From Cyclobacteriaceae bacterium (GTDB taxonomy: Bacteria; Bacteroidota; Bacteroidia; Cytophagales; Cyclobacteriaceae), in NCBI GenBank assembly GCA_016786495.1, contig JAEUUJ010000081.1, positions 1 to 64,000 of the forward strand: 64,000 nt of DNA, written 5' to 3'. The notes beneath the pieces are model-generated. The model made no database searches. It was not told the origin of the DNA and was given only the letters and a program-made list of their open reading frames with translations. The translations under genes and the position numbers were made by a program. The first letter of the stretch is position 1. Every line of letters begins with the position of its first letter. Of the stretch, positions 701 through 11,439 are shown one piece after another.

Positions 701-1156
701 CTACTCCATATTCAGCTCGTACCAGCTGTCGGCCGGTAAGTTGCCGCTCTGTGCAGCCTGAACCGCCAGCACATCGCAGCGTTCATTCTCCGGATGACCC
801 GCATGCCCTTTCACCCACACAAACTTCGGCTTAAATTTTTTATGAAGGGGTATGTAGCGTTTCCACAAATCCGGGTTCGCCTTCTTGGCAAAGTTTTTCT
901 TTTCCCAGCCCCAGATCCAGCCCTTCTCAACCGAGTCAACTACATACTTCGAGTCGGAGTAAATGGTAATCGGAATGCCGTCTTTCTTAATCGCCTCCAG
1001 GCCCACAATCACAGCCAGTAACTCCATCCGGTTGTTGGTAGTCAGGCGAAAGCCGGCAGAGAATTCCTTCTCATGCTGGCCGTATCGCATAATAGTACCA
1101 TACCCTCCCGGCCCCGGATTGCCCTGCGCAGCGCCATCGGTATAAATGCGGATCAT
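701..1156 (-). CDS. rnhA: Ribonuclease HI
   Basis: A 151-residue RNase HI, which degrades the RNA strand of RNA-DNA hybrids during replication and repair in the cytoplasm. The acidic active-site set is complete: Asp7 in IYTDGAAQGNPGPGGYG, Glu45 in NNRMEL, Asp68 in YSDSKYVVDS and Asp128 in ENERCD, with His121 in the flexible GHAGHPEN loop. The reading frame is open about 45 codons further upstream, but family alignment fixes the start at the ATG at 1156 (MIRIYTDG). That ATG overlaps the stop codon of the upstream CotH gene as ATGA, so the two are translationally coupled although their functions look unrelated. Confidence 0.95.
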   Translation of the reverse strand: MIRIYTDGAAQGNPGPGGYGTIMRYGQHEKEFSAGFRLTTNNRMELLAVIVGLEAIKKDGIPITIYSDSKYVVDSVEKGWIWGWEKKNFAKKANPDLWKRYIPLHKKFKPKFVWVKGHAGHPENERCDVLAVQAAQSGNLPADSWYELNME

Positions 1157-4100
1157 TCCTTGATAATCTTTAACGTCTTGAACCGGTTGCCCGATTGAAG
1201 GCGCAAGATATAAATCCCCGGAGGATTGTTTACCAGCGACAATTGCTGCTGCGTTACATTCGAAAACTGCTGAACCGGTCTTCCCAGGCAATCCGAAAGC
1301 AAAACATCAATCGGACGCGGTGAATCGATCGTCAGATAATCTTTTACGGGATTGGGATATGCGCTGATCAGCAGGTCATCATTTTCAAAACCGGTGATGA
1401 TTTCATTTAAGGCATCGGGCGTACTCACTTTCGTGAACACAAAAGGTCCGGTAGCATTCGGGATTCTGCTGAAAGAGCCTTCGATCCGTTGAGCATTATA
1501 AACGTATTCATTAATCGTGTGAATGTTTTCGCCAAGCTTTTGATAAAGGCCAACGGCTTCACCATCGTTCGAGAGTTTAAAGCCCAGATGATCCGGCCCC
1601 TGCGCAACATCTTCATCAGCCCACAGAATTTTGTAGCTGCCCGGCTGCAGGGTACCAACTCCCGCAGGAAGTTGATACTTCGTACGGTTGTTCAGGTTAT
1701 CGGTCAGGTACAAACCACCGAGGTTCACCGCTTGTGTTCCTGCATTGTATAATTCAATCCAGTCTTCAGCCTCACCGTTGTTATCGAGCAGCGAAGAGGG
1801 CGCAGTACTGATTTCGTTGATGATGATGTTGTTGATGATCGTTCCGAAAGGTTCAAAACTGGCTTCGTAGCTGATATCCGAAACGGCGGTGTCAAGCTGA
1901 ACAGGTTCTGTAGACGTTTCGACTGTTTGGCTTCCCAGTTTTACCGTACTCAGGTTCAGGTCGAAACTAAGATCGGAACTGCTGGCATTGATCTGGTGAA
2001 CTTCTACCGCCAGAACATTGGTGCCGGGTTTAATCAAACCTTTCGGGATGGTAAAGGCAGTGTAGGTACCTTCAATCGTGCCATCAAGCGCAAATGTCGA
2101 GTAGGTGATTGTTCCGCCCGGCATCAGCATCCGCGTCATCTCCACACCGTTGAGATAAATAACGGCTCCGTCATCCACCAGAATGTTTCCGCTCAATGCT
2201 GCAAAACCAACCGTATCGGCAACCGAAAACGTTTTGCGGAAATACGTTGTGGTAAACTTGTTGTTTGCATCCGGTCCGTAACTCACAACCGTTGCCTCAT
2301 CGCCTTCGCCATAGCCAAGTTGCGCAGAGCCGGAAGCCCAGGTGCCATCGTTAAAGGCTGACGTGTTCCAGTTCACAGGCATGCTTCCCTGATCGAAATA
2401 TTTCCACGTAGTTCCTGAACTGATCAGCGGCACAAATTGCGATTGTCTTTTGCTGATCTTCCATTCCTTGAAAGCATATCCGAGTGCCGGAACGGGCTCA
2501 ATCCTGACAGGCAGGTTTTTAAAATAGGGTTGGGTGGCATTGGCCCCGGCTGTTACACCGTTAAGCTTTAATTGTCCTTCGCCCTGCGCCACGCTGGTGG
2601 AGATGTTAACCTGTTCATTCAAGCCAAAAAAATCGGCCATGTGCTGTCGCATGAATGGAGTGCGTGCCGTTGCAAAGTCACGCAGCCGTTGCACTTCCCA
2701 GTTCCAGCCATTCATGTCGCCCCACCAGCGCGTTCTATGGTAGGGCATCTCCTGCGCAATGCGCGATTGAAACTGGTTAACAATGCTGATCACCCGATCG
2801 GGATGAAAGGTAGTATTTAACGCAGTGTTCATGGTTTGAATAAACCGTGCTCTGAACAGCGGATTCTCCAGGCAAAAACGAATGTGCTCGGTTGACCACG
2901 GTGGATTGGGCCAGCCCGGACCATCGGTTGCGGTAGCAAAGCTCAGCGTAGGATGGGCAGGATCGCCCACCAGATAAAAACCGAAATCGGTATCCCACAA
3001 AACCCAGCGAAACTTTCCGTTCACGGAAGCATCGCGCCAGTACTTCATGTTGTTGCCGGGCCAGTCGGTGTTGGCAAAGTAGATTTGGCACACCAGATAG
3101 TTAATGTATTCCTGAATGTCGATGTGCTGATCGATGAAGTCGTACGCTTGTTGTGTTGTGCGGTTCATGCCCGCCAGGGTGTTCTTATAGTTCACGTACC
3201 CTTCGTACGATCCTTCCAATGCGTTCTGGTCCCACGTTTCAATTAAATCAAGATTGTCCCGATCAACGTTGTAGTTGCTTTCGAAAAAGTCAGCATCAAT
3301 TTTCTCCCGAAGATTTTGAATGCCCATGTACTGTCCGTTCAGATACAGCACAGCCGGTTGATAGTCCATGTAATCGATGTCCATCTGGCCAACCGGTAAT
3401 GCTTGCATGAACGCATCGCGGAACATGGTTACATTAAAGTCGTTACCCGAGTTGCGCAGCATCAGCGCACCAAACTGGTTGATGTTCTTATTCGGAAAGA
3501 ACTTGTAATTCATGATGTTGCTGCCATATTTATCGCGGGCTTTAATGGCAAACGATTTTTGCGGCTGGTTGCGTGAGCAATTGCCCCCGATCCGCACATC
3601 CACCTCCTGATTGAACAGACGGTTTCCGTCTTTGTCGTAGTACTCAAACACCGCGTGACGGGCCCAGTCCTGGTTCCAGTTAACGGGATTCCCGTTACAG
3701 TAGCCGGGCACACCGTTCGTTCCTTCAACATAAATTCCGATCGTGTTGTCGTAGAGGTATTCCGGCTTCATGGAAATTGATACTACTGGCAGAGAGAAAG
3801 CGTGTTCATTGATAAAATACGTTTGAGTTTCTGTTTCACCCGGCAGAAACCCGGCGAGGAATGCTTTTGCTTTTACGGTTTGGGTTTGACTAACGGTAAA
3901 CGGTGTGCTGTACAGAGCCGAAATGGTGGTAGGCTCGCTGCCGTCAACGGTGTACCGGATTTCTGCTCCTGCCTTGCTGTGCGTCAGGGATACTTGTACG
4001 GGTGCAGCATAGCGTCCTCCGCTAACAGAGAATCGGGGTTTATCCAGTTGTTGGGATGCACTTGCGGGATTGTTGCCCGTGGCGGGCGTAGGAAAAGACA

Positions 4101-4539
4101 AGTATGCCCACGCGCCTGTGCCATTGGTGACGCGGCCATACGAGATGTTCGTAAACTGTTTTGGAAAAGTAATCTTGTCCATCAGTTGTCCGGAACTGTT
4201 AGACACCACCACATCTTCACCTTCGCTGTCGAGTGAGAAGTTGGTATGCCTTCCGGTGTTTTCATCATCACACCAGAAAATAATAAACCCGTTGGCGGGA
4301 ATGGTTGTGTTTGCCGGAACGCGCCATTTCAACGGAGTGTTCTCGTCATCCGACAGATAAAAACCACCGATGTTGACGGGCGATGAGCCAGTGTTTTGTA
4401 ACTCAATCCACGAAGAGAAATTAAAAAATTCGGGATCGAAGTTTATGTCGGCATTCGCCGGACAAATTTCATTGAGTACCACCTGGCCCGAGGCCGCGGA
4501 GGCGATTAACAGCAACAGCACAAAAGACAGCTTCTTCAT
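1153..4539 (-). CDS. CotH kinase family surface protein with lamin-tail domains and T9SS type A sorting domain
   Basis: A secreted protein of 1128 residues. In order: signal peptide (1-19, ending SAASGQ), lamin-tail domain (LTD, about 20-130, VVLNEICPAN), a chitobiase/Fn3-associated domain (about 165-255, EIRYTVDGSEPT), a CotH-kinase domain (about 255-635; KSFAIKARDKYG and WDTDFGFYL), a beta-sandwich region, a second LTD (from about 900, IINEISTAPSS) and a C-terminal T9SS type A sorting domain (about 1055-1128, SAYPNPVKDYLTID). CotH of Bacillus spores is a surface-protein kinase; kinase activity here is inferred from family. The start is the ATG at 4539, since the frame upstream has no signal peptide. 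The gene lies 48 bases after the TolC-like gene and has its own TAAGTTTGC box. It is coupled to rnhA by ATGA. Confidence 0.88.
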   Translation of the reverse strand: MKKLSFVLLLLIASAASGQVVLNEICPANADINFDPEFFNFSSWIELQNTGSSPVNIGGFYLSDDENTPLKWRVPANTTIPANGFIIFWCDDENTGRHTNFSLDSEGEDVVVSNSSGQLMDKITFPKQFTNISYGRVTNGTGAWAYLSFPTPATGNNPASASQQLDKPRFSVSGGRYAAPVQVSLTHSKAGAEIRYTVDGSEPTTISALYSTPFTVSQTQTVKAKAFLAGFLPGETETQTYFINEHAFSLPVVSISMKPEYLYDNTIGIYVEGTNGVPGYCNGNPVNWNQDWARHAVFEYYDKDGNRLFNQEVDVRIGGNCSRNQPQKSFAIKARDKYGSNIMNYKFFPNKNINQFGALMLRNSGNDFNVTMFRDAFMQALPVGQMDIDYMDYQPAVLYLNGQYMGIQNLREKIDADFFESNYNVDRDNLDLIETWDQNALEGSYEGYVNYKNTLAGMNRTTQQAYDFIDQHIDIQEYINYLVCQIYFANTDWPGNNMKYWRDASVNGKFRWVLWDTDFGFYLVGDPAHPTLSFATATDGPGWPNPPWSTEHIRFCLENPLFRARFIQTMNTALNTTFHPDRVISIVNQFQSRIAQEMPYHRTRWWGDMNGWNWEVQRLRDFATARTPFMRQHMADFFGLNEQVNISTSVAQGEGQLKLNGVTAGANATQPYFKNLPVRIEPVPALGYAFKEWKISKRQSQFVPLISSGTTWKYFDQGSMPVNWNTSAFNDGTWASGSAQLGYGEGDEATVVSYGPDANNKFTTTYFRKTFSVADTVGFAALSGNILVDDGAVIYLNGVEMTRMLMPGGTITYSTFALDGTIEGTYTAFTIPKGLIKPGTNVLAVEVHQINASSSDLSFDLNLSTVKLGSQTVETSTEPVQLDTAVSDISYEASFEPFGTIINNIIINEISTAPSSLLDNNGEAEDWIELYNAGTQAVNLGGLYLTDNLNNRTKYQLPAGVGTLQPGSYKILWADEDVAQGPDHLGFKLSNDGEAVGLYQKLGENIHTINEYVYNAQRIEGSFSRIPNATGPFVFTKVSTPDALNEIITGFENDDLLISAYPNPVKDYLTIDSPRPIDVLLSDCLGRPVQQFSNVTQQQLSLVNNPPGIYILRLQSGNRFKTLKIIKE

Positions 4540-4571
4540 CACGTTCTGACGTATAGTATTAATAATGACCT

Positions 4572-4580
4572 GCAAACTTA
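4572..4580 (-). promoter_or_regulatory. Bacteroidota -7 promoter box for the CotH gene
   Basis: TAAGTTTGC on the minus strand is an exact match to the Bacteroidota sigma-factor -7 element TAnnTTTG(C). It sits in the 48-base gap after the TolC-like gene, 32 bases upstream of the CotH ATG. No clear TTTG -33 box was found, so it may be a secondary promoter inside the cluster. Confidence 0.45.
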
Positions 4581-4587
4581 TGTAACC

Positions 4588-5826
4588 TTAATCCGCGAGC
4601 GTTTCGAGGTTACGCGACAAATAATTGGTGAGCGGCAACTGCTGTAGCGCATCCGTACTGGCAAGCCACTCGGTATAGGTTATTAAAATGTTTTGCCTGA
4701 GCTTCAGCGCAAGTTCTTCCAGTTTGATCAGGTTGCTTTTGAACCTGACGCTGGCTACCGGATTGCTTTTCTGAATGGTACTGAGTGTGCGGGCCAACGA
4801 ACTTACGTTGAGCGCATTTATTTTTTCTTCAATTCTGCGATGGCTGGCAATCAGATCACGAAGTTGTTCACGCAACCTGACCTGGTCTTTGCTTGTTTCA
4901 ACCTTTGCTTCTTTTAATTCCTGCTGCGATTCAATCGACTCAAGCCTGCGCTTGGTCATGTCGCCTTTGTTCGGATTAAACACCGGGATCGTTACCCCCA
5001 GCCCAACGCTCCAGGGTTTTCTGCCCTGATCGATGCGGAAGTCCTGGTACTTCGCCTGAATGTAGCCGAAGTTGATGTTGTTTCGTTCCAGTTTGAATTC
5101 GCGGTCTGCGAGATCAATTTTCTTTTGATAGTATGAGAGTGTGGTTGCCTCGGGCATGGTTGCCTGCAAACTGTCGAGCAGCTTTTCGATCTGGGGTATC
5201 GTGATAACTTCTGAAAGATTCCACTGCCTGGCACTTTGGGCGGCATCCGGAAAAATAGCGGCAACTTTTCGAATGGCATTCTCCGCTTCATACAATGCTT
5301 CATCGGCTTCCACCGACTTATCCATTTCCTCAAGCTTCAGATCGACATAATCTTCACCATCAAAATAACCTGACAGTTGTTGTTTCTCTAACATCGACAA
5401 CGATGTCTGCGTAAGTTCAAGTTTGCGTTGCGCGAGGTCGCGCAGGCTCGCATACATCACCAGTTCAACCACCAGGGTGTAGCGCTGCACGAGGCTATTC
5501 TTCAGCACGATGCCCTTTTCAAGTTCGATGCTGGATTTGAGCTCTTTGAAGTATAGGTTGTTCTGCCGCACTTCCCACGGATTGGAGGGATTCAGGCGAA
5601 GCGCATATTCCTGCCGGTTGGGATCAAGTTGGTTGCTTTCTGTTCTCAACTCGAACTTTTGTACCGGTGCAAGGCGGTAGGGCCGTTTATTGAGATAATC
5701 AACCTGCAGGTCGAACATGCTTACGGCAGGATCGTTTTTGGCAGCGCTGATAAAACTTCCGAACCCGGATTGAGCCGGAGCGATGCGTATGATAAAAACC
5801 AAAACGATAAACAGCGTCAGCCTCAT
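4588..5826 (-). CDS. TolC-like outer membrane channel protein
   Basis: A 412-residue protein with a signal peptide (1-19, ending IAPAQS) and long helical segments rich in Leu, Glu and Lys, as in TolC-family outer membrane channels. The stretch SVGLGVTIPVFNPNKGDMTKR (about 270-290) has the G-x-x-x-P-x-F-N-x-x-x-G pattern typical of the TolC strand-to-helix junction. It would form the outer membrane duct of a tripartite exporter. The gene starts four bases after the HlyD-type adaptor stop, so the two are surely co-transcribed. Similarity to well-known TolC proteins is weak by eye, so the family call is moderate. No pump gene is adjacent. Confidence 0.7.
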   Translation of the reverse strand: MRLTLFIVLVFIIRIAPAQSGFGSFISAAKNDPAVSMFDLQVDYLNKRPYRLAPVQKFELRTESNQLDPNRQEYALRLNPSNPWEVRQNNLYFKELKSSIELEKGIVLKNSLVQRYTLVVELVMYASLRDLAQRKLELTQTSLSMLEKQQLSGYFDGEDYVDLKLEEMDKSVEADEALYEAENAIRKVAAIFPDAAQSARQWNLSEVITIPQIEKLLDSLQATMPEATTLSYYQKKIDLADREFKLERNNINFGYIQAKYQDFRIDQGRKPWSVGLGVTIPVFNPNKGDMTKRRLESIESQQELKEAKVETSKDQVRLREQLRDLIASHRRIEEKINALNVSSLARTLSTIQKSNPVASVRFKSNLIKLEELALKLRQNILITYTEWLASTDALQQLPLTNYLSRNLETLAD

Positions 5827-5830
5827 GATG

Positions 5831-6844
5831 TTACCGGATTAACACTTTTTCGCCATTGGCAAAATTGTTGGAAGACGGAATCTCAATGAATACTTCTCTT
5901 CCGAAGGCTTTCACGGCAGTCGACTTTTGCAGAATATCCGGTAATTGTGTTACGGCTCCGTAGCCGATCACGCGACCGGAAGTTTTGATGGAGCTGTTTC
6001 CATAAGCTGATACACGAACGGAGTCGCCTACGGCAAATGTATTATTGTTTTTTCCGGCCAGGTAGCCGATCACGGTTGTGGGATGCACGGGAGTAATGGA
6101 GAGCAAATCGGTATATGAACTCACTTGCTCACCGGGCTTCACATAAACGTTTTTCACTACGCCGTCTGAACCGGCATATTTCACCAGTTTACTTTTTTCG
6201 GTTTTCAATAAATCGAGTTCCTGCTCCAGGAGTTTGATTTGATTGTTAAGCAATTGCTGTTCGATGAAGCCTTCCTGGCGGATGTCAGCTTCTTTGATAA
6301 CCATGGCTTGTTTGTGCTGCGCCTTTTGTTTGTAAAGCGAATTAAGTTTAACGCGAAGCGGGTTATCGGCTTCATTCCACACCGAAGTATCGCTGTCGGT
6401 GGCGAGTTCCTTGGTTAGTTTTTTATTCAGTTGAATGTCGCTTTTGGTTTGCGCGATTTCAGTTTCGAGTTCTTCAAGCGGAATCCCCTGATCGGCACGC
6501 AGGTAGTCTACCTGTGCCTGAATTAACCGGGCCTTGCTTTGACGTTCATCTTTCAGCAGGGCAATTCGGTTGGTGATTTTATCAATATCCATGTCGAGTT
6601 CGGTGCTGCCGAGGTCAATCAGTAATTGGCCTGTTTTTACCTGCTGCCCCGGAACTACCTGTACCGCCTTCACAAGGGCTGATCGTTCGGAATTGATTTT
6701 ATACTCTTTAACCTCGGTTATCCCGATGGATGAATAGTCGCTGCCACGAAAGTACCGGGCGCTAATCCAGATCATGGCCGCAAAGATGATTGCCACCAGA
6801 ACGTAAAACCAGTTAATGCCGGAGGTGTGTTTGTCGTTAGGCAT
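5831..6844 (-). CDS. HlyD-family periplasmic adaptor (membrane fusion protein)
   Basis: A 337-residue adaptor with one N-terminal transmembrane helix (about 11-31, FYVLVAIIFAAMIWISA), a half-lipoyl segment (VKAVQVVPGQQVKTGQLLIDLGS, about 55-77), a long coiled coil (about 80-235), the second half-lipoyl motif (GVVKNVYVKPGEQVSSY) and a beta-barrel domain. Such proteins bridge an inner-membrane transporter and a TolC channel. The usual partner pump (ABC, RND or MFS) is missing; the upstream gene, which overlaps its start by eight bases, is a DUF4956 membrane protein, and the downstream gene is TolC-like. The substrate is unknown. Confidence 0.82.
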   Translation of the reverse strand: MPNDKHTSGINWFYVLVAIIFAAMIWISARYFRGSDYSSIGITEVKEYKINSERSALVKAVQVVPGQQVKTGQLLIDLGSTELDMDIDKITNRIALLKDERQSKARLIQAQVDYLRADQGIPLEELETEIAQTKSDIQLNKKLTKELATDSDTSVWNEADNPLRVKLNSLYKQKAQHKQAMVIKEADIRQEGFIEQQLLNNQIKLLEQELDLLKTEKSKLVKYAGSDGVVKNVYVKPGEQVSSYTDLLSITPVHPTTVIGYLAGKNNNTFAVGDSVRVSAYGNSSIKTSGRVIGYGAVTQLPDILQKSTAVKAFGREVFIEIPSSNNFANGEKVLIR

Positions 6845-7508
6845 TGTTGGGTTCGTTTACCGTGATTTTGGGTTGACTCAATCCTTCTACCACTGTCAGC
6901 GCGTTAAACAATACATCTTTCTCCTGTTCTTTATGGAACGTGATGGCGTACTGATAACGGGTTTCTCCGTTTTTTGAAACGTTAATCGTCACCAGCCGAT
7001 GTGCAGCCGTGTGCCGCTCAATGATGGCGATCACGGCATTCAGGTCTTGTGTATTCTTCAAGTTGAAGAACAACATATTCGGACTGGTAAAACTCCGGAA
7101 AGGCGACATGTGTAGCAATGCGGCTATTACGCAGAATAGTATCGTGCCGGCAAATGATACGGTAAATCCGTATACACCTACCGCGAGGCCGGTGCTGAGC
7201 GCAGCAAAAAGGAATAGTACATCGCGGGGGTCGTCAATGCGCGTGCGAAACCGGATAATGGCCATAGCACCAAATACGCCAAGCCCGCGGGCCAGGCTGT
7301 CGCCAATGGCCATCATCACCATCGCAGTCACAATCGAACCCAGAATAAGCGATTGGAAAAAGTTCTTTGGATAATATTCTCCTGTAAAGGTGAGCCTGTG
7401 TGTTACGGCAATAATTGACGAGAGCACAAAACTCCATGCAAAACAGTACAGAACATTAATCAGTTGAGGGTACTCATATACCGGCTGATCGGGGAATAAT
7501 TCAAACAT
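6837..7508 (-). CDS. DUF4956 family integral membrane protein
   Basis: A 223-residue protein with about four transmembrane segments (roughly 18-38, 50-70, 74-88 and 96-134) and a soluble C-terminal domain of about 80 residues. The conserved DUF4956 core is GVFGAMAIIRFRTR followed by DDPRDVLFLFAALSTGLA (78-110); GAxxIRFRT also resembles the MgtC/SapB membrane family, though homology is only a suggestion. Members of this family are known beside CotH and VTC-type polyphosphate polymerase genes; CotH is here but no VTC gene is. The gene follows the LTD lipoprotein by 21 bases and overlaps the adaptor gene by eight. Function is unknown; it occupies the place where an exporter would have its inner-membrane component. 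Confidence 0.82.
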   Translation of the reverse strand: MFELFPDQPVYEYPQLINVLYCFAWSFVLSSIIAVTHRLTFTGEYYPKNFFQSLILGSIVTAMVMMAIGDSLARGLGVFGAMAIIRFRTRIDDPRDVLFLFAALSTGLAVGVYGFTVSFAGTILFCVIAALLHMSPFRSFTSPNMLFFNLKNTQDLNAVIAIIERHTAAHRLVTINVSKNGETRYQYAITFHKEQEKDVLFNALTVVEGLSQPKITVNEPNNA

Positions 7509-7529
7509 CGGTTACGGTTGTTAAATCTC

Positions 7530-8783
7530 TTAATTGTTGGACGCTCCCGGTGTAGGGCTTGTAAACTGTTGCCATGTTGAGCCGCCATTGATGGTTGCAC
7601 CGAACGATTTGTTATCGTCCTGCGCTCCGAATGTCTTGCTGTTGATCAACCGGCCATCGATATAAAACAATCCAACCGCTTCACCTGTTTTGCTCAACTT
7701 GAAACTCATGTGCAACGGGCCCTGGCTTCCTTGTTCATCGGCCCAGAATAATAAGAATCCACCCGCTGGAATTGTTACCCCGTTTGGGATTTTTGATTTG
7801 AATGGATCATTCAAATCGTCTGACAAATACATGCCGCTCAGGTCAATCGTTGAACCGCTGCTGTTGTAGATTTCAATCCAGTCGTCAAACTCGTCAACCC
7901 CGCCATCGTCATCCGGGCAGCAGGTGGTGCTGGACGCCATAATCTCATTAACATGAAGTGCAGGCAATGCATCGTTGTTTAACAGGTAATGGTATGAATC
8001 GGCCGGTGCATCGAATGGCTTGTAGCTGACGGCACCTGTTGTACTTTTTGCTTCCACATAATAATTCATCGTGCCGGTAACGCCCGCGCCCTGTGCCGGA
8101 ATGGTGGCGGTGTAGTAGTTGCCAACCTTCGGCATCGCCACTGACGTGAACGCTCCACCCTCAAAACTGTAGAAGAGTTTTACCGTACTGAGCTGAGCCG
8201 TGTTGGTAAGTTCAGCCTGAATGGTGACCACCTGATTCAACGCAGGTACGGTAGGCGTACGGATAATAGTTGTAATGGCCGGCGCGTCTGAATCGTTATT
8301 GGAAGCGCCCTGACTTGTATTTCCGGAAACTGCAAGATTATCCGACCCGTCAGGGTAACGGCCATACGACTGACCATTGTCGAGTTTAGGATACGTGACC
8401 GCTTCTGCGATTTCTCCGCTGCCGTTTTTCAGCGTTACGGTTTCTCCGGTCGACGAGAGTTTGAAATTGGTATGTAAACCAGTGTTGGTATCATCGCAAT
8501 AGATAATGAGATAGCCGTTGGCCGGAACGGTTGTTCCCGCGGGCAGCGTATATTCGGCATCGCCATCGTCCTGAATGCGATACCCGCTAATGTTCTTCTG
8601 ACTGCCGGTTGAATTGTAAAGCTCAACCCAGTCGTCACCCGAAGCCGAAATCTCATTAATGAAAAGTCCTTCCGCGGCCGTGATATCCGGATCGTTGTCT
8701 TCGTCTGATGAGCAATTATTGAAAATTAGAAGCGTGCAAAGCGCAGTGCACGAGAGAACAAACTTCACGATATTCTTCACCAT
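7530..8783 (-). CDS. Lamin-tail-domain lipoprotein
   Basis: A 417-residue lipoprotein. The signal peptide ends in LLIFNNC (Cys24) and is followed by SSDEDNDPD, an acidic run like the Bacteroidota lipoprotein surface-export signal. Two lamin-tail domains follow, at about 40-165 (LFINEISASGDDWVELYN) and 275-417 (LHVNEIMASSTT ... DDWIEIYN), separated by an Ig-like domain (about 175-265). The DDWVELYN/DDWIEIYN motif is shared with the CotH protein of the same cluster. There is no T9SS sorting domain. It is first in the leftward cluster, 21 bases ahead of the DUF4956 gene, so it may be a substrate or surface partner of the adaptor/channel pair. That role is inference. Confidence 0.82.
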   Translation of the reverse strand: MVKNIVKFVLSCTALCTLLIFNNCSSDEDNDPDITAAEGLFINEISASGDDWVELYNSTGSQKNISGYRIQDDGDAEYTLPAGTTVPANGYLIIYCDDTNTGLHTNFKLSSTGETVTLKNGSGEIAEAVTYPKLDNGQSYGRYPDGSDNLAVSGNTSQGASNNDSDAPAITTIIRTPTVPALNQVVTIQAELTNTAQLSTVKLFYSFEGGAFTSVAMPKVGNYYTATIPAQGAGVTGTMNYYVEAKSTTGAVSYKPFDAPADSYHYLLNNDALPALHVNEIMASSTTCCPDDDGGVDEFDDWIEIYNSSGSTIDLSGMYLSDDLNDPFKSKIPNGVTIPAGGFLLFWADEQGSQGPLHMSFKLSKTGEAVGLFYIDGRLINSKTFGAQDDNKSFGATINGGSTWQQFTSPTPGASNN

Positions 8784-8876: not shown

Positions 8877-9446
8877 TTAGGCAGGGAATACGTTGTCTTT
8901 AAATATCTTAACCGCTATCGCGAGCAGGATCACACCAAAGATTCTTCGTAGTACTGCAAAACCTGCTTTGCCGATCACCCGCTCCAGCCATGCCGATAAC
9001 CGTAGCACCGCATACACGAAAACCAGGTTGATCACAATGCCGACCAGAATGTTGATTTCGGCATAAACAGCGCGGAGCGAGAGGATGGTAGTCAGGGTTC
9101 CTGCACCGGCAATCAGCGGGAAGGCAATCGGAACAATAGAACCTGTGCCTTTGGCATCCGGATCGTCTTTAATCAGGGTAATGCCGAGAATCATTTCCAT
9201 CGCTACAATGAAAATGACAATCGCACCGGCTACGGCGAACGATGCCACGTCAAGACCAAACAGGTTAAGAATGGATTGGCCGAGGTAAAGAAATGCAATC
9301 ATCAAGACGGCAGAAATGATGGTAGCCTTTTCGGCATGTATTCGCCCTTCGCGTTTGCGGATGTTAATGATAAACGGGATGGAACCCAGGATATCAATCA
9401 CAGAGAATAGAATAAGGGTTACCGAAAATATTTCCTTGAAATTCAT
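8877..9446 (-). CDS. MarC family integral membrane protein
   Basis: A 189-residue protein with about six transmembrane segments covering most of its length, matching the small MarC (UPF0056) family in size and pattern. Visible family features are an N-terminal helix with LFSVIDILGSIPFII and the central GTGSIVPIAFPLIAGAGTLTTI (about 101-122), where the PxAxPLxAGPG-like signature is found. MarC was once linked to multiple antibiotic resistance, but that has been withdrawn and the transport role remains unknown. It follows the TPR gene by 25 bases in the same direction. Confidence 0.9.
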   Translation of the reverse strand: MNFKEIFSVTLILFSVIDILGSIPFIINIRKREGRIHAEKATIISAVLMIAFLYLGQSILNLFGLDVASFAVAGAIVIFIVAMEMILGITLIKDDPDAKGTGSIVPIAFPLIAGAGTLTTILSLRAVYAEINILVGIVINLVFVYAVLRLSAWLERVIGKAGFAVLRRIFGVILLAIAVKIFKDNVFPA

Positions 9447-9471
9447 GTCGCAAAGCTACAGAAAAAGAAGC

Positions 9472-10137
9472 TTACCGCTTGGGTTTCGAAGATTCTTCGA
9501 GGCGCTGTAAAAAGTCTTTCGACAATTGATGGTCAGGGTCAACCGCCAGTGCCCGGTTAAAATACTGTTTCGCGGAGTGGAGGTCGCCCAGCTTCAGGTA
9601 ACATTCCCCGATCGAAAACTCGGCCAGCGCACTGTAGGGGTGGATGGTCAGCGACAATTTGAAATCATCGATTGCGTCCTTCCACCGGCCCAGGTCCATT
9701 TTGCAGAATGCCCGGTTGTCGAGGGCCTCATACAGTGTCGGGAAAAGATCAAACGCCCGGGTATATTTTTCAATGGCTTCTTCGTGCTTTTTCTGATCCG
9801 TTAATGCATAGCCTTCATGAAAGTAACGGGTGGCTTCTTCAATGATTGAATCCATGTTCTGCGTTTGGCGAAGGTATTCGTGATAGCCAATCAGTTCTTC
9901 ATCGCGCACGCGGCTTTTTTTAAACAGAACAGGATTTTCAAATCCGTTTTTATCAATCGGAAAATGGTGGATGAACACGGTTAGTGCTTCAACCTTTTCA
10001 GGGTCTGGTAAATGTTCAGCGGGCGAATAGCCCAAGACATGATAGGTACCGAAATCGCGATCCACCTTCAGCACTTTGTGGAGATGGTATTTGTTTTCGA
10101 TGCGGGTATAGAAGATATCGCCTTCGGTAAATTCCAT
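9472..10137 (-). CDS. TPR-repeat protein with N-terminal beta domain
   Basis: A 221-residue probably cytoplasmic protein with no signal peptide. The N-terminal half (1-100) has a small domain beginning MEFTEGDIFYTRIENKYHLHK. The C-terminal half contains about three tetratricopeptide repeats (about 112-215), for example YTRAFDLFPTLYEALDNRAFCKMDLGRWKDA and IGECYLKLGDLHSAKQYFNRALAVDP. TPRs mediate protein-protein contacts; the partner is unknown. It lies between the antiporter gene (51 bases upstream) and marC (25 bases downstream) on the same strand, so the three may form one transcript. Confidence 0.75.
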   Translation of the reverse strand: MEFTEGDIFYTRIENKYHLHKVLKVDRDFGTYHVLGYSPAEHLPDPEKVEALTVFIHHFPIDKNGFENPVLFKKSRVRDEELIGYHEYLRQTQNMDSIIEEATRYFHEGYALTDQKKHEEAIEKYTRAFDLFPTLYEALDNRAFCKMDLGRWKDAIDDFKLSLTIHPYSALAEFSIGECYLKLGDLHSAKQYFNRALAVDPDHQLSKDFLQRLEESSKPKR

Positions 10138-10188
10138 AGCGGTTGTGGGAACGCCTGTGAAGATACGTGTTTATCTGGTATGCGCGTG

Positions 10189-11439
10189 TTACTTAACCCG
10201 CTTGTTTGGTTTTTGCATCTGCGTAAGCTTGCCCACCGTGAGCCCCTGGACAACGATGGAGAATACCACCACGTAATACGTAATTGCCATGAACAAATTG
10301 TGATGCAAATGGTCGTCAATCGTTAGGGCAAGTGCAACGGAAACACCTCCGCGTAAACCTCCCCAAACCAAAATAGTGATGGTTCGGGCATCGAACGTGC
10401 CGATGTTGGGAACGAATTTGATGGGCAGCCAGATGGAAAAGAACCTGGCCAGCAGAACAATGAGGATGGTGAGCGGGCCGATGATCCAATACTGCTGCAG
10501 GTTCGGTATCAGTAACAACTCGAACCCGATGATGAGGAACAACATCGCGTTCAGAATCTCATCGATCAGTTCCCAGAACTTGTCGAGGTAATCTTTATCT
10601 GCAGCAGACATCGCCACCGCTTTACCGTAGTTTCCGATAACAAGTCCTGCCGCGACCATCGTTAACGGTCCGGAAATGTGCAGCATGCGCGTGATCAGAT
10701 AGCCACCCATCACTACGGCCAGCGTAATCATCACGGTTACGTTGTAACTGTTGATTCTTTTAATCCCCTGCGAGGCTATGTATCCAAGCAGAAGGCCCAT
10801 GAGCAGTCCGCCTCCGGCTTCCTGAAGAAACAATCCGCTGATGTGCAGAAACGTCAGGTCTACTTCGCTTCCCCGGGCAAGTTGCAGCAACACGGCAAAC
10901 AGCACTACCGCAACACCATCATTGAACAGCGATTCACCGGCAACTTTTATTTCGAGTGATTTTCGGATGCCAGCTTTTTTCAAAATGCCGATTACTGCAA
11001 TCGGATCGGTAGGGGAGATGAGTGCGCCAAATACCAGGCATTCAATGAAGGGAATGGTAACGCCCAGTAAGATGAAGGTGAAATACATCATCGTACCCAC
11101 AAAGAAGGTAGAGATGATTACACCCACCGTAGAAAACATCATGACCGGGATGCGTTGCTTGCGCAGATCGTGGAGGCTGATGTGAATCGCTCCGGCAAAG
11201 AGCAGGAAGTTCAGCATAGAACCCATGAGTACTTCCGTGAAGTCAACACTGGCAATGATATCGGTGAAACCGGTAAACATATCGGGATACGATTTACCCG
11301 CGATTACGAGGCTGATGGATACAAGCATGGCCAGAAGCATGATGCCAATAGCCGATGGCAACTTCAAATACCTGAGGTTCAGGTATGAAAAGATGGCCGT
11401 AAGCACAATCAGGACCGAAAAAGAATAGTATAACTCCAT
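10189..11439 (-). CDS. Na+/H+ antiporter, CPA1 (NhaP-like) family
   Basis: A 416-residue cation/proton antiporter of the inner membrane with about 12 predicted transmembrane helices. The family signatures are clear: SPTDPIAV (142-149), and GESLFNDGVAVVLF (168-181) whose Asn173-Asp174 pair is the ion-binding ND motif. The later segment TITILVWGGLRGGVSVALAL is also typical of NhaP/NHE proteins. The long C-terminal RCK-type regulatory tail found in some relatives is absent. It probably contributes to pH and sodium homeostasis. It is first of a possible three-gene leftward unit with the TPR protein and MarC. Confidence 0.92.
   Translation of the reverse strand: MELYYSFSVLIVLTAIFSYLNLRYLKLPSAIGIMLLAMLVSISLVIAGKSYPDMFTGFTDIIASVDFTEVLMGSMLNFLLFAGAIHISLHDLRKQRIPVMMFSTVGVIISTFFVGTMMYFTFILLGVTIPFIECLVFGALISPTDPIAVIGILKKAGIRKSLEIKVAGESLFNDGVAVVLFAVLLQLARGSEVDLTFLHISGLFLQEAGGGLLMGLLLGYIASQGIKRINSYNVTVMITLAVVMGGYLITRMLHISGPLTMVAAGLVIGNYGKAVAMSAADKDYLDKFWELIDEILNAMLFLIIGFELLLIPNLQQYWIIGPLTILIVLLARFFSIWLPIKFVPNIGTFDARTITILVWGGLRGGVSVALALTIDDHLHHNLFMAITYYVVVFSIVVQGLTVGKLTQMQKPNKRVK

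Follow-up and report, generated by a model that had tools for sequence, protein, structure and literature searches.

The first part of the window, a stretch of 64,000 nucleotides from a Cyclobacteriaceae bacterium (contig JAEUUJ010000081.1), carries a block of five leftward genes at 1153-8783. We read this cluster as encoding a conduit across the whole cell envelope that stems from a VTC synthase-translocase and serves CotH kinases at the cell surface, and thus as a polymerase-less descendant of a VTC-DUF4956-CotH system; we put the prospects of this reading at about even. It draws on the gene content of the block, the conservation of three of its genes as a DUF4956-HlyD-TolC triad, a VTC-less clade in the DUF4956 tree, residue covariation within DUF4956 and a coupling to CotH, each seen by comparing sequences.

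All five genes lie on the minus strand with exact gaps of 21, -8, 4 and 48 bases. Their places, spacing and domain identities, as given in an earlier note on this DNA, were all borne out by open reading frames, Pfam, NCBIfam and Foldseek. The genes, together with one site discussed below, are as follows.

7530-8783, minus strand: LTD lipoprotein with two lamin-tail domains (LTD), putative surface partner or target (PF00932 twice, E 2e-34)
6837-7508, minus strand: DUF4956 inner-membrane protein, putative channel (PF16316, E 5e-12, 46.2 bits against a cut-off of 30.6)
7221-7253, minus strand: DUF4956 residues 86-96 (RFRTRIDDPRD), the K/R92 plus D96 site, with D92 in the window (alignment rows)
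5831-6844, minus strand: HlyD/EmrA-type periplasmic adaptor (HlyD_3, PF13437, 27.0 bits against a cut-off of 22.2)
4588-5826, minus strand: TolC-fold outer-membrane channel (AlphaFold2 model and Foldseek)
1153-4539 (ATG start), minus strand: CotH kinase-domain protein with two LTD domains and a type IX secretion system (T9SS) sorting tail (PF08757, E 1e-47; TIGR04183)

The LTD lipoprotein has a lipobox-like stretch (...LLIFNNC-SSDEDND, by eye), and Pfam also places CHB_HEX_C_1 and Por_Secre_tail in the CotH protein. The type A C-terminal T9SS sorting domain of the latter scores 45.5 bits against a cut-off of 23 (TIGR04183); the call of T9SS cargo refers to this tail of CotH alone. The five-gene block is kept in two same-genus genomes, and its ratio of nonsynonymous to synonymous substitution rates (dN/dS) is 0.017-0.049 where dS could be estimated (dS was mostly saturated, and the LTD gene gave no estimate), which argues that the cluster is more than a chance arrangement.

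The DUF4956-HlyD-TolC triad and the search for a pump

Gene neighbourhoods were compared in 195 relatives, the window genome included, and in a phylum sample of 296 genomes that overlaps the relatives in the window genome and some others. DUF4956 was matched in 34 of the 195 relatives. HlyD was matched at E < 1e-20 in 21, all of which have DUF4956; the two genes are adjacent in 20 and unlinked in G075, where DUF4956 stands alone on one contig and HlyD-TolC-CotH/LTD, with two further CotH genes, on another (L046, L146). Weaker HlyD matches (E 1e-5 to 1e-3) elsewhere in the relatives were read as other adaptors. In the phylum sample, all 19 matches to the HlyD alignment (A4) at E < 1e-20 adjoin DUF4956. 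Spacing is tight, the DUF4956-hlyD gap being at most 12 bases in 40 of the 43 linked VTC-less triads and the hlyD-tolC gap at most 11 bases in 39 of them. Judged by gene order, DUF4956-HlyD-TolC is a conserved unit, kept together across relatives in the neighbourhood check that the earlier note had proposed. Because this strict adjacency fits such a role, we retain that note's suggestion of DUF4956 as the inner-membrane partner of HlyD and TolC, its channel role being putative. At least 516 loci were confirmed; those named here are the top 80 by similarity to the window DUF4956, and class proportions among them are not population estimates.

The HlyD adaptor has one N-terminal membrane helix and a long coiled coil (both by eye), along with lipoyl halves; among solved structures its profile (A4) is nearest to EmrA (8zar, E 3.5e-10), with MacA at 1e-7. 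For the TolC-like protein, Pfam gave nothing above cut-off, and a PDB profile search with its alignment matched nothing. Its AlphaFold2 model (mean predicted local distance difference test score, pLDDT, 86.7) gave 43 Foldseek matches at E ≤ 0.001, which by title are outer-membrane channels or efflux complexes containing one, apart from 5azs, 5azo and 5azp, an unnamed Pseudomonas membrane protein.

An EmrA-like adaptor and a TolC-fold channel recall EmrAB-TolC and other tripartite exporters; the window differs from these in having DUF4956 where they have an ABC, RND or MFS pump. Pfam finds no such pump gene in the window cluster, which leaves room for one in trans; we infer that none acts there either. 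Flanking genes were collected from 42 loci with DUF4956 and the window's TolC family, four of them with VTC, as 75 same-strand genes in runs with gaps of at most 150 bases, up to four before and six after DUF4956. These matched 81 Pfam families, the 25 most frequent of which include LTD (15 members), CotH (11), VTC (3) and DcuC (2) and no ABC, RND or MFS family, single exceptions among the rarer families being possible. Ten of the 75 genes scanned singly yielded no pumps, two of the ten having no match at all, and a Walker/signature regular expression flagged no triad locus within -4/+5 genes. An ABC or RND gene inside the cluster of relatives, which the earlier note had named as grounds for abandoning a pump-less machine, was seen in none of the triad neighbourhoods checked. 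In two near-identical loci (L045, L072), a DcuC-type carrier, judged by length and place, and then an M20 peptidase gene appear directly after tolC.

In a conventional tripartite efflux system, HlyD and TolC would work with an MFS or ABC protein encoded elsewhere to export a small molecule, and DUF4956 would be an accessory subunit. Orphan adaptors exist, the HlyD profile is closest to that of EmrA, and the carrier after tolC in L045 and L072 would suit such a system. However, none of the DUF4956-less genomes compared has a strong match to this HlyD family, the triad neighbourhoods checked hold no ABC, RND or MFS gene, and the coupling to VTC and CotH set out below would be left unexplained; we consider conventional efflux unlikely.

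Probable common descent with VTC-linked DUF4956, and residue signatures

The window genome (4.0 Mb, 100% complete) has exactly one DUF4956 match, encodes PPK1 and gave no VTC (PF09359) match. The absence of VTC reported in the earlier note extends to the whole genome. A system wholly unrelated to VTC was nevertheless rejected, since VTC-bearing triads exist: VTC accompanies the triad in one Bacteroidota genome (L162, G255) and in four other phyla, represented by L069 (Delongbacteria), L074 (Fibrobacter), L077 (Desulfobacterium) and L083 (Spirochaetia). Gene order in L162 is CotH-DUF4956-HlyD-TolC-VTC-LTD, with CotH 123 bases ahead and the others touching or overlapping.

In a midpoint-rooted tree of 136 DUF4956 rows, a 50-row clade (100/100) unites these five VTC triads with all VTC-less triads of the window's HlyD and TolC families. 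Within it, a 44-row clade (99/97) includes the window and has no VTC match nearby; the five VTC triads fall outside. By this tree, the window DUF4956 shares descent with VTC-linked DUF4956, and VTC was probably lost once in the window's clade. VTC is frequent in the tree beyond this clade, and it comes with DUF4956 in the genomes that have it (47/47 in the phylum sample; 12/12 VTC relatives once loci were read), which makes loss likelier than gain. L147, L164, L169 and L170 were left out of tree and counts as repeats, and L146 as it has no DUF4956; L054, L089, L122, L137 and L143 were lost before the tree to the open reading frame caller or a length filter and were later read in six frames. 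One of these, L054 (G146), has an HlyD-DUF4956-TolC set whose adaptor and channel belong to other families; it lacks VTC, has K92 but no D96, and lies in a genome that has CotH. The single VTC-less clade thus holds only for the window's HlyD and TolC families, and VTC-less HlyD-DUF4956-TolC seems to have arisen at least twice.

Other VTC-less arrangements were also seen. Same-genus genomes (L059, L061-L063) carry a different DUF4956 clade (192-217 residues) followed by proteins of 341 and 480 residues of unassigned family, with no VTC within 6 kb. Poribacteria (L116, L127, L136, L138, L144) pair DUF4956 with CotH, with no VTC within 6 kb and Q92 where shown, possibly a further loss of VTC. A gene upstream in these loci was rejected as a VTC substitute: those in L116, L127, L136 and L138 look, by eye, like an ABC substrate-binding protein and permease.

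Residues R86 and R88 are invariant in DUF4956 (136/136 rows), and positions 92 and 96 vary with VTC. When a row is counted as VTC-positive if VTC lies within 6 kb, all tree loci being searched in six frames, K/R92 with D96 is found in 64 of 79 VTC-positive rows against 3 of 57 VTC-negative ones (L070 and L109 at contig ends, L090 not). Seven VTC-less rows initially had the signature; four of these (L074, L106, L140, L157) turned out to have a hidden VTC gene in the six-frame search, which uncovered none in rows lacking the signature. The 15 VTC rows without it comprise five with K92 and an acidic residue at 96 and ten of a divergent RYRT clade. Within triads, the signature is present in 7/7 with VTC (in L160, one of the seven, TolC belongs to an adjacent divergent cluster) and 0/44 without. 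VTC and the full 92/96 signature also occur in L089, L122, L137 and L143, and adding the dropped loci, L054 among them, gives 68/83 against 3/58. A second site follows HlyD: the turn motif G-[DN] at residues 69-70, taken as lying on the periplasmic face, occurs in 68 of 76 HlyD-positive and 15 of 60 HlyD-negative rows. These patterns make 92/96 a candidate contact surface for VTC and 69/70 one for HlyD, with a putative VTC docking signature at 92/96 that would have decayed in the window's clade.

Among the named loci, HlyD lies near VTC-DUF4956 in none of 22 Bacillota rows and in 18 of 28 others (Fisher 8e-7); the adaptor is thus seen only where an outer membrane could need crossing. In L160, a divergent cluster of a 1276-residue protein with HlyD-like and TolC-like proteins adjoins VTC-DUF4956-HlyD and looks like a separate efflux set.

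The AlphaFold2 model of DUF4956 (mean pLDDT 85.4) has five helices and a beta-alpha-beta ACT-like domain, with a probable N-out, C-in topology that would place the ACT-like domain in the cytoplasm. Foldseek matched its C-terminal domain weakly to ACT domains (from E 2e-3) and to that of MgtC (2lqj, E 0.019, TMt 0.62); no solved structure was a convincing match for the membrane part. A PDB profile search returned weak C-terminal matches only, a viral fold library was uninformative, and the match to MgtC/SapB (NF007431; E 4e-4, 20 bits) is far under the cut-off of 214. These similarities suit an MgtC-like regulator whose ACT-like domain senses phosphate or nucleotides and gates export or kinase activity, with no channel. 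SIR_1592 of Streptococcus intermedius, which is DUF4956 by inference, is likewise described as MgtC-like, with four membrane segments and an ACT domain (PMC12345266; this and the other papers cited are represented by excerpts, to which statements drawn from them are limited). Set against a regulator are the invariant R86 and R88 in the membrane part, an operon that encodes no other inner-membrane component and a DUF4956 gene that overlaps or abuts hlyD in most loci, and we hold this explanation to be improbable.

Coupling to CotH and the proposed conduit

CotH follows the system closely. Among the relatives, it is present in all 21 triad genomes and all 12 VTC genomes, against 53 of 162 others. 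In the phylum sample it is found in 46/47 VTC genomes (G425 lacks it), 18/18 triad genomes, 3/9 other DUF4956 genomes (including G146) and 40/222 genomes without DUF4956, so that, pooled, 64 of 65 genomes with VTC or the triad have CotH against 43 of 231 others. Family f42 has CotH in 21/21 genomes with DUF4956 and 0/14 without; genera g185, g198 and g213 each contain both states with zero exceptions to the pairing. CotH and DUF4956 thus come and go together there, a pattern that points to a shared pathway and not to common ancestry alone.

LTD genes lie next to the triad in L032-L035, L038, L050, L067 and L086. The earlier note had tied CotH and LTD proteins to the machine; for CotH this stands at the level of genomes, every triad genome having it, and is looser at the locus, where the VTC-less triads often have neither gene close by (counts below). 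The phosphorylation of LTD proteins by CotH remains putative, as does the assignment of the window CotH as a protein kinase, which is made from sequence. Its alignment had no meaningful match in a PDB profile search. Two Asp residues, D492 and D516, lie 24 residues apart in near-invariant N..D and D columns (13 CotH rows, alignment A7). In B. subtilis CotH the second Asp is D251. The closest known counterpart is the CotH spore-coat kinase of Bacillus, in which D228 is catalytic in B. subtilis (PMC7821199); the window protein shares the CotH domain and Asp pair, and differs in its T9SS tail, its LTD domains and a kinase activity that is putative.

We know of no clear bacterial route by which kinases outside the cell are supplied with the phosphoryl donor they need. 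For channel function, cargo, energetics and kinase targets, we infer a scheme of the following kind. The ancestral system of diderms would have a VTC polymerase in the cytoplasm that makes polyphosphate or a similar anionic product; DUF4956 would pass this product through the inner membrane, and HlyD and TolC would lead it on across the periplasm and the outer membrane. Secreted CotH kinases at the surface might use the product or act together with it, LTD proteins being their likely partners or targets, and synthesis or a gradient would power transport, with no ABC, RND or MFS pump involved. With VTC probably lost from the window's clade, the conduit there may carry a phosphoryl-rich cargo of other source, PPK1 polyphosphate or ATP. 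A stronger claim, tentative and on balance doubtful, is that DUF4956-HlyD-TolC represents a novel, pump-free kind of tripartite machine that brings polyphosphate or ATP as phosphoryl donor from the cytoplasm to the cell surface; if true, it would explain what fuels extracellular kinases. The system brings surface kinases together with a polyphosphate polymerase family, a membrane protein that has been little studied and a conduit of adaptor and channel; with the VTC-less branch as a natural deletion series, the question of phosphoryl supply becomes testable by single-gene knockouts.

Several observations weigh against the conduit. The adaptor's nearest solved relative, EmrA, has an MFS pump as its partner, which makes a pump in trans conceivable here too. 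VTC, the sole link to polyphosphate, is found in 0/21 triad genomes of the relatives and 0/18 of the phylum sample, and TolC lies near just 7 of 79 VTC rows, which makes the HlyD/TolC extension irregular in VTC systems. CotH occurs outside the system as well, in the 53 relatives and 40 DUF4956-less phylum genomes counted above, and within 6 kb of the VTC-less triads CotH is found at 13/44, LTD at 11/44 and either at 17/44. Foldseek returned zero matches at E ≤ 0.001 for the DUF4956 model, and shared ancestry inflates both the covariation and the co-occurrence contrasts. The S. intermedius mutants are a further point: loss of either SIR_1592 or the cotH-like SIR_1594 cut aggregation, but Pel rose when SIR_1592 was deleted and fell when SIR_1594 was, and for the polymerase mutant SIR_1593 the excerpt reports no change of this kind (PMC12345266). 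These data fit DUF4956 and CotH acting together without VTC, not a simple polyphosphate-supply chain in that species.

Related systems and flanking genes

Yeast VTC, in which polyphosphate synthesis is coupled to translocation, provides a precedent for the proposed ancestor (PMC9911596). The eukaryotic complex (Vtc1/3/4) joins a VTC polymerase domain to a membrane channel (PMC9911596), to which the bacterial pairing of VTC with DUF4956 in 47/47 VTC genomes is the likeness; the window genome differs in having no VTC and in adding HlyD, TolC, CotH and LTD, a comparison made at the level of gene content.

Gram-positive pel loci with cotH, polyphosphate polymerase (PPP) and DUF4956 genes likewise bring together DUF4956 (named in PMC7112168 and inferred in PMC12345266), CotH and a VTC-type polymerase, as does NELoc-2 of C. 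perfringens, where DUF4956 is inferred (PMC2879425). In the latter, CP4_0461 and CP4_0464, labelled tubulin/FtsZ GTPase (222-226 residues) and lying beside the VTC and CotH genes, are probably DUF4956 proteins by size and place. The excerpts on both sets of loci mention no HlyD or TolC, whereas the window has these without VTC, and no pel genes were recognised in it. According to the excerpt of PMC12345266, the trio of CotH, polymerase and DUF4956 was not found outside pel loci; in the present census, which did not include a search for pel genes, VTC, DUF4956 and CotH stand side by side in many loci. We recognised no description of DUF4956 with HlyD and TolC in the literature searched, a single paper collection whose silence is not proof of absence in print.

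The pel loci bear on one more explanation, in which the molecule exported or anchored by the system is an adhesin or a polysaccharide of the matrix, modified by CotH, VTC and DUF4956. The adjoining of CotH, polyphosphate polymerase and DUF4956 genes to Gram-positive pel operons (PMC7112168) and the lower aggregation and shifted Pel of the SIR_1592 and SIR_1594 deletions (PMC12345266) speak for it, but no glycosyltransferase is among the 25 most frequent of the 81 families matched by the 75 triad-flanking genes, and we assign it little probability.

On either side of the window cluster lie genes that we do not count among its parts. MarC, TPR and Na/H antiporter genes (8877-11439) precede it, and an RNase H gene (701-1156) overlaps cotH by 4 bases. 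As candidate parts, all four were rejected: each matches just 3 of the 75 triad-flanking genes, the number expected from the window and its two same-genus relatives, which marks them as flanking genes. Among the loci fetched, this gene order is kept only in G008 and G011.

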